Positions 1,188-8,168 of a stretch of 30,887 nt of DNA are shown here, one piece after another. Origin of the DNA: a virus; IMG/VR virus record IMGVR_UViG_3300007735_000598, positions 1 through 30,887 of that record. One strand, written 5' to 3'. The notes below the pieces were generated by a model, which saw nothing but the letters and a program-made list of their open reading frames with translations, ran no database searches and was not told the DNA's origin. Position 1 is the stretch's first letter, and every line of letters starts with the position of its first letter. The translations under genes and the position numbers were made by a program.

Positions 1188-2114
1188 ATGACAAAGCAGC
1201 AAGGACTCGCCAGCGCGTTGCTGGCCGCACAGCAAGCCCTGCCGAGCGTCGGCAAGGACAGCCAGTTCAAGAGCCAGTCTTACGGCTACGCCTACACAAG
1301 CAGCGAAACCATGATCGCCGCGTGCCGGGAAGTCCTGCACGCCGCCGGCCTGACGCTTCGCCGGGCTGGCTGGAAGTTCGACGGCACGCCGGAGGGCGGC
1401 GGGCTGGTCACGAGCCAGTTCATCCTGACGCATGCGGCGACCGGCGAGAGCGTCGCGGATGAGGTCGCGTGGGTGGCGGTGCCCAGGGGCCAGCAGCCCA
1501 TCGACAAGGCGGTGGCGGGTGCCCTGACGGCCAGCCTCGGTTACTACCTGCGGGATCTCCTGCTCGTGCCCCGCGAGGATGAGAACGAGATGGACAAGAG
1601 GGATGACAGCGCCTATCAGCCCCGCAAGGCTCCTGCACCGGCTCCCCGGCCGGCCCCGGCGCCTGCACCCCGCCAGACGCAGCAGGATGCCCCACGGGCG
1701 GTTCCTGCCCCCAAGGCGGCTCCGACCCCGCCCAAGGCCACGGAATCGACCACGGAGGCTTCTAGCGGCCCCATGCGGGAGGTTATCGGTAGCCGTCCCC
1801 CGGCTGCGGCCGCGTGGCGATCTGAACCCCTCCGCATCCTGAAGGCGGTCAAGTCTGACAAGCCGACCAAAAACGGAAGCACGCGGTGGGCGATCCTGTT
1901 CCAGACTTCGGGCGATGACACATGGGCCAGCACCTTCGACGGCGATGTTGCCGACGCGGCCAGCGAGGCACGCGATGCGGCGGTCATGGTCGAGGCTCTG
2001 GTTGCGGATGGTCAATACGGCTGGACGCTGTACGGGCTCCGGTGGCCGGAGGTACCATCGGCTGCACCGGCCCCGCAGCCCGTCGAGGTCGCAGAGGAAC
2101 ACATTCCGTTCTAA
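1188..2114 (+). CDS. erf: ERF-family single-strand DNA annealing protein with SSB-like C-terminal tip
   Basis: The N-terminal half (about residues 5-155) matches the ERF superfamily: an SYGYAYTSSETMIAACREVL segment, a LTHAATGESV strand, and AVAGALTASLGYYLRDLLLV followed by an acidic EDENEMD. Known ERF proteins anneal complementary single strands in phage recombination and genome circularisation. Residues about 156-230 are a Pro/Ala-rich linker. Residues about 234-295 look like a small beta-barrel (OB-fold-like) domain. The protein ends EVAEEHIPF, closely resembling the acidic -IPF tip of bacterial SSB that recruits partner proteins. At 308 residues it is longer than a minimal ERF domain because of these additions. 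It opens the rightward early operon; ATG 1188 follows AGGAG. The ERF call is firm, the OB-fold inferred. Confidence 0.88.
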   Translation: MTKQQGLASALLAAQQALPSVGKDSQFKSQSYGYAYTSSETMIAACREVLHAAGLTLRRAGWKFDGTPEGGGLVTSQFILTHAATGESVADEVAWVAVPRGQQPIDKAVAGALTASLGYYLRDLLLVPREDENEMDKRDDSAYQPRKAPAPAPRPAPAPAPRQTQQDAPRAVPAPKAAPTPPKATESTTEASSGPMREVIGSRPPAAAAWRSEPLRILKAVKSDKPTKNGSTRWAILFQTSGDDTWASTFDGDVADAASEARDAAVMVEALVADGQYGWTLYGLRWPEVPSAAPAPQPVEVAEEHIPF

Positions 2115-3119: not shown

Positions 3120-3914
3120 ATGAGTCTACAACCTGAACGGAGCGAGGGCACGCCGCTGGCGTTCCTGAAGTTCTACGGTAGCGACTTCCTGAACGCGACC
3201 GCATCATGGACGATGGAGGAGCGGGGCATCTACCTGACCCTGCTCTGGTATGCGTGGGTCAACGGCGGTCTGCCCGGCGACATCGACCGGATCGACCGGA
3301 TGGCACCGGGCGCGAAGGCGTGCTGGTCGGTGCTGGAGGGCAAGTTCCCGATCAGCCCGGACGGCATGCGACGCAACCCACGGCAGGAGCGCGACCGGGC
3401 GATCATGCGTGACCGCAGCGACTCCGCAGCCGAGCGTGGCCGGAAGGGTGCAGCCCAGCGATGGCACAGCCATGGCAATAGCCATCCGGTAGCCATGCAG
3501 CAGCCATCGAATCGGGATGGCTACGGGATGGCGAGTCAGAGATCAGAGTTCAGAGATCAGAGTTCAGAGGTCAGACCATCAGAATCAGAGAAAACACATA
3601 CGCTCGGCGGTGCCGAGCATGTGCCTGATAACTCAAGGCCAAAGATGCGGATGCCGGACGGGGCGCTGGATCGGCTCTGGGCTCTGTTCCCTCGCAAGGT
3701 GGGCAAGCGGAAGGCGCTCGCCCTGCTGGAGAAGGAGATCCGGGCCTACGCCGACGAATGGGAACTGCCAGACCTGACCGACGCGGTAGAGGTGTTCCGC
3801 GAACACATCGTTCGCATGGCGACCAAGTACCGCAACACCGAGGAACGATTCATCCCGCACCCGGCCACTTGGCTTTCGCAAGGCCGCTACCTTGACCCCG
3901 TGGAGACACCATGA
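3120..3914 (+). CDS. DUF1376-type phage replication protein
   Basis: The first about 95 residues fit DUF1376 (YdaU-like): LKFYGSDFLNATASWTMEER, then GIYLTLLWYAWVNGGLP and a W..L..KFPIS segment. The C-terminal third (about residues 180-264) has ALFPRKVGKRKALALLEKE and ends FIPHPATWLSQGRYLD, a module common in phage initiator or helicase-recruiting proteins. The middle is a low-complexity linker (His, Gln, Ser, Arg) encoded by DNA full of short repeats, which makes it a candidate origin. The 264 residues are typical for the family. Such proteins are thought to act at the phage origin with helicase loaders. ATG 3120 is preceded by AGAGAGG. It overlaps the next gene as ATGA. Confidence 0.8.
   Translation: MSLQPERSEGTPLAFLKFYGSDFLNATASWTMEERGIYLTLLWYAWVNGGLPGDIDRIDRMAPGAKACWSVLEGKFPISPDGMRRNPRQERDRAIMRDRSDSAAERGRKGAAQRWHSHGNSHPVAMQQPSNRDGYGMASQRSEFRDQSSEVRPSESEKTHTLGGAEHVPDNSRPKMRMPDGALDRLWALFPRKVGKRKALALLEKEIRAYADEWELPDLTDAVEVFREHIVRMATKYRNTEERFIPHPATWLSQGRYLDPVETP
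3468..3522 (+). repeat. Iteron-like AGCCAT repeats, helically phased
   Basis: AGCCAT starts at 3468, 3480, 3491 and 3502 (steps of 12, 11 and 11 bases, close to one DNA turn), followed by its reverse complement ATGGCT at 3517-3522. The cluster lies inside the linker-coding part of the replication gene. Regular spacing of a short word on one face of the helix is typical of initiator-binding iterons. Confidence 0.55.
3537..3575 (+). repeat. 14-bp tandem repeats CAGAGATCAGAGTT
   Basis: Two exact 14-base units occupy 3537-3550 and 3551-3564, followed by a partial degenerate unit (CAGAGGTCAGA, 3565-3575). They encode the Arg/Asp/Gln/Ser-rich linker of the replication protein. The unit length is not a multiple of three, so the two units are read in different frames, which suggests selection on DNA, or slippage, rather than on the peptide. 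Confidence 0.65.
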
Positions 3915-4714
3915 ACCCATACAAAATTGAACCGCCGTTCTATGTGTCTTTCAGCGGAGGGAGAACGAGCGGTTACATGCTGCGGCACATTCTGGATGCC
4001 TGGGGCGGCGAATTTCCAAAAGGCGGTCATTGCTTGTTTGCGAACACTGGGCGGGAACACGAGCGAACCCTTGAGTTTGTGGAAAGAATCGGACGGGAAT
4101 GGTGTCCCGTTTCGTGGGTTGAGTGGCGACATGATGGGTTTGAGGAGGTGTCACCAAGCACAGCCAGCCGAAACGGAGAACCGTTTGCGGGGCTGATTCG
4201 GAAGCGGAAGTTCCTACCAAACCCGATTGCTAGGTTTTGCACGAGCGACCTAAAGGTTATTCCGATGCGGCGGTGGATGGAAAGCCGTGGATACGCGGAG
4301 TTCACTACTGTGATCGGCTTGCGAGCCGACGAGCAGCGGCGCGTCGCCAAACTTCGCGGAGACCAGTCGCGTGACATTGCCATGCCGCTCGCCGATGCGG
4401 GCGTGCACTCCGAGATGGTAAAAGAGTGGTGGCGGCAGGCTGCGTTCGACCTGCAACTACCCAACGGAGATGTCGCCTTCGGAAATTGCGATCTCTGCTT
4501 CCTCAAGAACCGAGCCGCAACCGAACGAGTGATGGAGGCCGAGCCCCAGCGCGCGAAGTGGTGGATCAATCTCGAAAACGAGATCGGTGGCACCTTCCGA
4601 AAGGATCGACCCCCATACGCCACCATCCTGCATCAAGTGACGATACAGGGTCGGCTATTTCCTGAATCAGATGATCCGAACGACATAACAATCCCATGCG
4701 ATTGCACGGAGTAA
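3911..4714 (+). CDS. PAPS-reductase-like (PP-loop) sulfur-transfer or reductase family protein
   Basis: The 267-residue product has the PP-loop SGGRTS (residues 15-20) that binds the pyrophosphate of ATP or PAPS, and GLRADEQRR (136-144), which resembles the second signature of the CysH/DndC superfamily. Cysteines at 110 (RFCTSDLK), 193 and 196 (CDLC) and 263 and 265 (CDC) could hold an iron-sulfur cluster, as in DndC-like proteins. The substrate cannot be told: sulfate assimilation, tRNA thiolation and DNA phosphorothioation are all served by relatives. No dndD/E or cysteine desulfurase lies nearby. Sampled G+C is 52-58% (3961-4080, 4201-4260), below neighbours, suggesting recent acquisition. 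ATG follows GGAGACACC. Confidence 0.75.
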   Translation: MNPYKIEPPFYVSFSGGRTSGYMLRHILDAWGGEFPKGGHCLFANTGREHERTLEFVERIGREWCPVSWVEWRHDGFEEVSPSTASRNGEPFAGLIRKRKFLPNPIARFCTSDLKVIPMRRWMESRGYAEFTTVIGLRADEQRRVAKLRGDQSRDIAMPLADAGVHSEMVKEWWRQAAFDLQLPNGDVAFGNCDLCFLKNRAATERVMEAEPQRAKWWINLENEIGGTFRKDRPPYATILHQVTIQGRLFPESDDPNDITIPCDCTE

Positions 4715-6824: not shown

Positions 6825-7189
6825 TGACCGTGGCGATCCCCTCGCGGGTGTTGAGCCCCAACGCACGCGCACACTGGTCGATGGTGATGAAGGCCAAACG
6901 GGCCGCTCGCGTCGAGGCGTGGGCAGCGGTTCAGGTCGCCATGCACGAGCAGAGCGTGACCGGCAAGTGGAAAGCGGCCGAGTGCCGCGTGGTCTGGTTC
7001 GCACGAGACTCCCGACGCCGCGACCGGGACAACCTGCTCGCCACGCTCAAGGCAACCTTCGACGGGCTCGTGGACGGCGGGCTCCTCGTGGACGATGCCG
7101 GACTTACCCACCTGCCGCTCGCCGTCGAGGTAGACAGCAAGCGGCCCCGCGTAGAACTCCACCTGAAGGAAACCGATGGCGAAGCGTAA
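6803..7189 (+). CDS. rusA: RusA-family Holliday junction resolvase
   Basis: The product (128 residues from ATG 6803) has the RusA signature: RVLSPNARAHW near the start, then RRRDRDNLLATLKATFDGLV followed by DGGLLVDDAG. Aspartates at about 74, 76, 97 and 98 correspond to the acidic cluster that binds the catalytic metal in RusA. The enzyme cleaves four-way DNA junctions as a dimer, resolving recombination or replication intermediates before packaging, and its presence fits the ERF recombination gene. The start is uncertain: GTG 6824, just after the small open frame above, would give MTVAIPSRVLSPN and also covers the whole domain. It overlaps the phosphoesterase gene by 14 bases. Confidence 0.85.
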   Translation: MAAEALLVTVAIPSRVLSPNARAHWSMVMKAKRAARVEAWAAVQVAMHEQSVTGKWKAAECRVVWFARDSRRRDRDNLLATLKATFDGLVDGGLLVDDAGLTHLPLAVEVDSKRPRVELHLKETDGEA

Positions 7190-8168
7190 GGCGAAGGCGA
7201 AGCCAGAAGCGGCGCTCGGCCCCGGCGAGATTCTGGGCAAGCCGATCCGTGAACGGTATCCAGACCGGCAGCGGGGTTGGAGCGTTGAACATCATGGCAA
7301 GAACATCCATGTCGTGAAGGTGCACAGGCCGAACGCGAAGAAGGTCGAGCAGTGGGTTCTCCTGCTGGCCGACAACCATATCGACAATCCCAAGGCCAGA
7401 AACGATGTCACCTCCCGCCTGCTGGGCGAGGCCGTCCAGCGGGACGCGGCTGTCATCGTGGTGGGCGACTTCCTAGACCTAATGCAGGGCGTCGCGGATC
7501 GAAGGGCCAGCAAGTCCGCATTGCGGTCTAGCCTTCTGTCCGATGGATACTTCGACAAAGTGATCGACATGGGCGCCGACCTGTGCGCCCCCTACGCCAG
7601 TCACATCGCGGTCATGGCCCAGGGGAATCACGAGTCGGCGTGGCTTCGGCACAACTCCAGCGACCCCACGGAGAACCTCGTCCGGGCGATCAAAGACCGG
7701 GCACACTCACCCATCGGGGCAGGGGCATACGGCGGCTGGATCAAGTTCCAGTTCATGGTCGGCGGCAATCACCTCGCGTACACCATGCGATACCAGCACG
7801 GAACGGGTGGCGGTGCCAGCCCGATGAGCATGGGCGTGCTGGATGCGCGGCGCATGTACTCGTGGATCGAAGGTGCCGATTCCATCGTCATCAGCCACAA
7901 CCACGCCAGCAACGTGGTGGGCATCGCCCGCGAGTACCTGCGATGCCAGAACGGCGCCTACACAGTTGAGAAGCGATACTGCGACATGATCCGCGTGGGC
8001 ACGACGAAGGACGCATGGGCTGACGGCGCGCACGGGTGGGAGGTCGAGAAAGGCTTCGGCCCGTCCCCCATCCGGCAGAAGTGGCTGCGGCTGTTCGTGA
8101 CGTGGGACTACGCCGAGAAGAAGGGCGGCCGGGCTCGCATCGCGTGGGATGTCCACGATGCGCAGTGA
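7176..8168 (+). CDS. Calcineurin-like metallophosphoesterase (Mre11/SbcD-like fold)
   Basis: The 330-residue product has the ordered metal-binding motifs of the family: LADNHID (D66, H68), VVGDFLD (D98, D101), AQGNHES (N151, H152), RYQHGTGG (H208) and ISHNHAS (H241, H243, in place of the usual GHxH). These bind two metal ions for phosphodiester cleavage. The first 55 residues are a basic extension. The aligned motif order supports an active enzyme. No SbcC-like ATPase is encoded nearby, so it may work alone on DNA ends or RNA; the substrate is not determinable. ATG 7176 overlaps rusA, and the stop overlaps the next gene. Confidence 0.82.
   Translation: MAKRKAKAKPEAALGPGEILGKPIRERYPDRQRGWSVEHHGKNIHVVKVHRPNAKKVEQWVLLLADNHIDNPKARNDVTSRLLGEAVQRDAAVIVVGDFLDLMQGVADRRASKSALRSSLLSDGYFDKVIDMGADLCAPYASHIAVMAQGNHESAWLRHNSSDPTENLVRAIKDRAHSPIGAGAYGGWIKFQFMVGGNHLAYTMRYQHGTGGGASPMSMGVLDARRMYSWIEGADSIVISHNHASNVVGIAREYLRCQNGAYTVEKRYCDMIRVGTTKDAWADGAHGWEVEKGFGPSPIRQKWLRLFVTWDYAEKKGGRARIAWDVHDAQ

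Follow-up and report, generated by a model that had tools for sequence, protein, structure and literature searches.

A predicted ERF-family phage annealase carries a portable OB-like tail with an SSB-like tip

Introduction

The C-terminal tail of SSB is a hub that organises bacterial DNA repair, and annealases have so far been reported as readers of this tail. One gene, P0001, in a viral DNA fragment raises the question of whether an annealase can also acquire such a tail for itself and, if so, what the tail would do there. The fragment, hereafter the window, is the whole 30.9-kb stretch that was analysed and encodes a terminase and a portal protein of the tailed-phage type. An initial annotation of this DNA had read P0001 as an ERF annealase with its own SSB-like C-terminal tip, separated from the annealase domain by a Pro-rich linker and a small beta domain, possibly an OB fold, and had proposed that this tip may recruit host or phage enzymes directly.

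In the Sak4 and SSB pair of HK620 and in the Sak and SSB pair of 80alpha, annealing depends on an SSB-type C-terminal tail (PMC5928155, PMC11846896). Indeed, the NDYPPF tail of SSB_HK620 is needed for most of the stimulation of Sak4 recombineering and for the binding of Sak4 to SSB-coated DNA (PMC5928155), and SSB-coated DNA is annealed efficiently only with both the C-terminal domain of Sak80alpha and the last seven residues of SSB80alpha (PMC11846896). The C-terminal domain of lambda Red-beta binds lambda exonuclease and may also contact SSB (PMC9512822). In Firmicutes phages, erf adjoins ssb in almost 80% of cases, and Gp157 or Gam-like genes are often found upstream (PMC8093625).

Results

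The start of P0001 (Table 1) is preceded by an AGGAG at positions 1171-1175, about 12 nt 5′ of the ATG, and the equivalent methionine is the start in its relatives. The protein matches Pfam ERF (PF04404) over residues 8-158 with 34.1 bits (cut-off 25) and, in PHROGs, phrog_155 (Erf-like annealing protein, E 9e-10). On these matches the ERF assignment of the initial annotation holds: P0001 is an ERF-family annealase by sequence, with an annealing activity predicted from its ERF domain. The translation also agrees with the end EVAEEHIPF read there (the protein terminates in VEVAEEHIPF), and the Pro-rich linker corresponds to a Pro/Ala/Gln-rich stretch for which disorder is predicted. Among the ORFs of at least 50 aa in the window, P0001 is the only one to end in an acid-[ILVMFP]P[FLWY] motif.

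Table 1. Positions of P0001, its parts and its neighbour in the window
Feature	Position	Strand	Remarks
Whole gene P0001 (ERF, linker, OB-like domain, acidic IPF tip)	1188..2114	+	308 aa, stop included
ERF single-strand annealing domain, residues 7-142	1206..1613	+	Pfam match, predicted fold, 45-49% identity to ERF-only relatives
Pro/Ala/Gln-rich disordered linker, residues 143-197	1614..1778	+	residues 143-194 with pLDDT < 50
C-terminal OB-like domain T1, residues 198-290	1779..2057	+	predicted elements, OB-fold matches
Variable spacer ahead of the tip, residues 291-299	2058..2084	+	pLDDT < 50, little conserved
SSB-C-terminus-like tip EVAEEHIPF, residues 300-308	2085..2111	+	IPF 23/23, acids enriched at -4 to -6
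Gp157/Mu Gam-like gene, neighbour of P0001	2186..2707	+	PF05565 E 3e-27, phrog_253

Full-length P0001 was modelled with AlphaFold2 from a 24-sequence alignment. The C-terminal domain, T1, is confidently predicted (pLDDT 84-93) in the order β-β-β-α-β-β (β1 215-222, β2 234-239, β3 244-249, helix 252-264, β4 267-275, β5 278-285), and modelling the domain alone gave identical elements with a mean pLDDT of 80. Residues 291-308, including the EEHIPF tip, are predicted to be unstructured (pLDDT < 50); a buried tip, which would have spoken against the SSB-like role proposed initially, is not seen.

Searched with Foldseek, the T1 model matched mainly OB folds, among them RPA and the SSBs of bacteria and mitochondria, although no match has a strong E-value (0.016 for the best one in the PDB). 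With VIA-align, Z scores of 9.4 for PriB, 8.8 for the RecO N-domain, 8.7 for Rim1 and 8.6 for Bartonella SSB were obtained. OB folds of unrelated function score equal to or higher than the SSB-type proteins, and therefore the fold is not used to assign a function. The model thus supports the OB fold suspected in the initial annotation, and T1 may bind ssDNA. By sequence, T1 has no match in Pfam even at E 10, thus none to the SSB family PF00436, and a sequence search of the PDB returned no relative of T1 or of the domain T2 described below. The C-terminal domain of P0001 is predicted to be beta-rich with one helix, which does not correspond to a three-helix bundle of the Red-beta type.

We compared the tip at residue and codon level in 23 T1 members. 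All of them (23/23) end in Ile-Pro-Phe, encoded by codons that vary synonymously (ATT/ATC, CCG/CCA, TTC/TTT). Position -5 is Asp or Glu in 22/23, and positions -10 to -7 drift, with three to six different residues each. The C-terminal domain of P0001 is just 40-47% identical to the other T1 domains and yet IPF is kept; the tip was therefore preserved where the domain diverged. The tip is under purifying selection at the protein level. The full architecture of P0001 is common to the close relatives found, and the acidic-IPF end, whose absence would have weakened the initial proposal, is kept in all close homologues.

A search with the C-terminal domain only identified four loci (L051, L054, L055 and L063) in which the linker, T1 and the tip lie behind RecT, not ERF; their RecT domains (PF03837) score 97-109 bits (cut-off 24). 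A fifth such locus, L166, came from the RecT search. In one phage group, RecT-T1 and ERF-T1 loci are homologous at the DNA level upstream of the gene, then over a stretch that runs from within the linker beyond the stop codon, then downstream, and their annealase domains have no DNA similarity. The homology between ERF- and RecT-bearing phages starts inside the linker, and the shared 3′ stretch of the genes measures about 430-520 bp with 66-85% identity (75-85% for the closest pairs). The linker, the OB-like domain and the tip form a cassette that has moved between unrelated annealase domains. The pattern of DNA homology indicates that the annealase was exchanged in place with the tail staying, or the reverse.

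ERF relatives devoid of the module (L031, L033-L044) are 45-49% identical to P0001 over the ERF domain, have no tip and end in short, probably helical C-termini. Among named phages, we found no relative of the T1-ERF over its length and no record covering 80% of the T1-RecT or T2-RecT proteins. A stretch of ~170 bp located 3′ of the RecT gene of L051 (5378-5552) matches L025:4548-4720 and L028:4304-4470 with 81-86% identity; in these ERF-bearing relatives it sits inverted and upstream of the gene. At L011:4001-4974, and also in L032, the ERF gene reads as scrambled and frameshifted (40% identity), which reflects a gene that is broken or an assembly of poor quality.

The C-terminal domain of a tipped RecT is T1 or one of two others, T2 and T3. 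An [ILVM]PF end is present in 4/79 complete canonical ERFs versus 33/77 complete RecTs related to L054. T2 is found on ERF (L250-L285, L328), on RecT and on a divergent RecT-like family, phrog_561, which has no Pfam match above cut-off; 49 of the 55 distinct complete T2 members are tipped, the usual end being acidic-[ILV]PF. The phrog_561 proteins with both T2 and the tip are L286-L292, L298-L302, L306-L310, L312-L313, L321 and L324. T2 and T3 have the architecture of T1, and their strand patterns may be compatible with OB folds; homology of T1 with T2 or T3 is unsupported (hhalign probability 12 and 27, no significant sequence match). This kind of tail therefore sits on at least three different annealing proteins in related phages. 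While the SSB-like tip on an annealase with an adjacent OB-type domain stands as initially annotated (EEHIPF behind a predicted OB fold), its scope is wider: the tail is a portable module on several annealase families, and its being unique to P0001 is ruled out by T1 on RecT and T2 on further annealases.

On some ERFs the tip follows other C-termini (L083, L087, L143, L071). The L071 protein, from a Nitrospirota genome (G119), consists of an ERF, a Gln/Pro-rich linker and another C-domain, and ends in GEEKDDLPF; apparently, its SSB-like tip was gained independently. On the RecT tree, the tip also disappeared three times or more from proteins that kept T2 (L175, L202-L204, L206, L209, L211), and the T2 ERFs of six related contigs (L264-L269) end in KEEVF or KEEIF, having lost the proline and kept the acids and the terminal Phe. 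The tip is therefore dispensable or alterable in these lineages, and the tipless T2 RecTs are natural controls for its role.

The association of tip and module was examined in 108 annealases, 90% non-redundant and chosen by their N-domain. A tip is present in 14/19 annealases with a module versus 3/89 without (Fisher 5e-11), a value that is inflated by relatedness and pseudo-replicated, because the RecT tree shows no more than three origins of the modules; on this tree, the module type changes three times and the tip six times, leaving too few independent pairs for a phylogeny-corrected comparison. [ILVM]PF ends were found in 58 of the 1141 non-redundant ORFs of these loci, 52 of them annealases; since some loci were chosen for their tipped annealases, the evidence lies in what the remaining six are. 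Four match the SSB profile and two, small ORFs near ERF, are SSB-like by eye.

Discussion

Like the ERFs of named phages (PF04404/phrog_155), P0001 has an N-terminal ERF domain scoring over the cut-off and a Gp157/Gam-like neighbour, but the named-phage ERFs examined lack the OB domain and the IPF tip. In Bacillus phage Silence, a DDDLPF tail is carried by a separate SSB encoded directly downstream of ERF, whereas P0001 has its own. With the bacterial and phage SSBs (PF00436, DDDIPF), P0001 shares a predicted OB fold, a flexible linker and acids followed by a terminal Ile-Pro-Phe; its tail differs in having no detectable sequence match to them and in being fused behind an annealase. T7 gp2.5 also combines an OB fold, an acidic C-terminal tail and annealing activity. 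However, gp2.5 anneals via its own OB domain, while in P0001 and its RecT counterparts a separate domain, ERF or RecT, would do the annealing. In HK620 and 80alpha, the annealase is acted on in trans by a tail that belongs to a distinct SSB protein; in P0001, the annealase itself bears the tail. Lambda Red-beta also has a linked C-terminal domain for protein contacts, including the exonuclease and SSB, and this domain is a three-helix bundle interacting with SSB (PMC9512822, citing Caldwell 2019); that of P0001 is OB-like and itself SSB-tipped. In the open-access literature searched, no record of a natural fusion of annealase, OB domain and SSB tip was found.

We propose, with a probability of about 0.58, that P0001 combines an annealase with an SSB-like half whose tip docks enzymes that read SSB tails. 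The ERF domain would oligomerise and anneal complementary strands, and the OB fold would help to hold single-stranded DNA or contact the annealase. Each subunit would expose one tip, which could fit the pocket in which RecO, ExoI, PriA, RecQ or primase read DDDIPF, and the annealase would then present itself as SSB-coated DNA. Repair or replication-restart enzymes would thereby be brought to annealed products, no SSB being needed at that spot. The docking of the tip on such readers is what we infer from its likeness to the SSB motif. In its favour are the invariant IPF, the presence of T1 and T2 on several annealase families, the predicted OB fold, the near restriction of such ends to annealases and SSBs, the lack of separate ssb ORFs beside tipped annealases and the phages in which an annealase works with an SSB tail in trans. 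Against it, T1 has no sequence relation to SSB, and some T2 RecT lineages do without the tip.

The tip could instead act within the annealase oligomer by folding against the DNA groove of the OB or ERF domain to which it is linked, where it would block DNA binding until complementary ssDNA displaces it, as reported for the acidic tails of E. coli SSB and T7 gp2.5. Acidic tails are reported to contact their own DNA-binding sites (PMC5928155, discussing Su et al. 2014), and the T1 tip is always linked to the OB domain, as such a cis mechanism would require. We consider it unlikely, however, as Ile/Leu/Val-Pro-Phe tips follow three C-domains with no detectable relation, occur in three annealase families and are also found behind C-termini in which no module was detected (L083, L087, L071), so that an equivalent cis partner would have to exist in all these proteins; moreover, charge masking alone would not need Pro-Phe. 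A partner encoded by the phage itself is rather improbable, even though candidates are encoded in the P0001 region, such as the exonuclease-like protein at 7176-8168 (phrog_7339) or the Gp157/Gam-like neighbour, and the Red-beta C-terminal domain offers an analogue by binding lambda exonuclease (PMC9512822). Similar annealase tips on many different phage contigs suggest a partner common to many hosts; in addition, the motif is that of SSB, for which host readers exist.

That the IPF end would be a chance sequence or a non-functional remnant of a Pro-rich tail appears highly improbable. While several T2 RecTs have lost IPF and some ERFs keep only EEVF or EEIF, the synonymous changes under an invariant IPF in such divergent domains, the retention of the tip through the annealase swap and the near restriction of such ends to annealases and SSBs all argue against it. 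A chance origin in particular is ruled out by this restriction, by the invariance among T1 members and by the single such ORF in the window.

More tentatively, the docking reading may be extended: the annealases of several phage lineages could act as their own SSB, through a cassette repeatedly fused to ERF, RecT and RecT-like domains that would coat and pair ssDNA, summon the host partners of SSB and replace the ssb gene. Separate ssb ORFs were detected next to 15 annealases without a tip and next to none with one (Fisher 0.02, kinship ignored), and PF00436 has no match in the whole record of the window, which thus has no detected SSB-family gene. However, no ssb gene was detected within the record fragments of the ERF-only relatives (L031, L033-L044) either, and its absence is therefore not special to tipped phages. 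Replacement of a separate ssb gene by the tip is thus weakly supported and, at best, suggestive.

The retention of the cassette while the annealase is exchanged points to a function that is independent of the annealing mode, and makes it directly testable whether SSB tails act in cis or in trans during annealing. Outside the host it comes from, an annealase frequently fails in recombineering, and one proposed reason is its coupling to the host SSB. An annealase with its own tail might therefore be less host-restricted, and a self-tailed annealase may have practical use in recombineering.

As to the host, the sole genome match among the relatives is L045, a 3.9-kb contig in a Nitrospiraceae MAG that is possibly mis-binned. 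The SSB of this MAG (L070) ends in EVEEQG, without the usual acidic-IPF tail. In the window itself, a tRNA search returned none, and the Gp157/Gam-like gene next to P0001 belongs to the usual neighbours of erf modules (PMC8093625). A PAPS-reductase-like gene lies among the early genes at 3911-4714 (phrog_424, E 5e-44), and a single ORF at 11189-12379 matches both ParB-like and DNA methyltransferase phage families, as a ParB-methyltransferase fusion.
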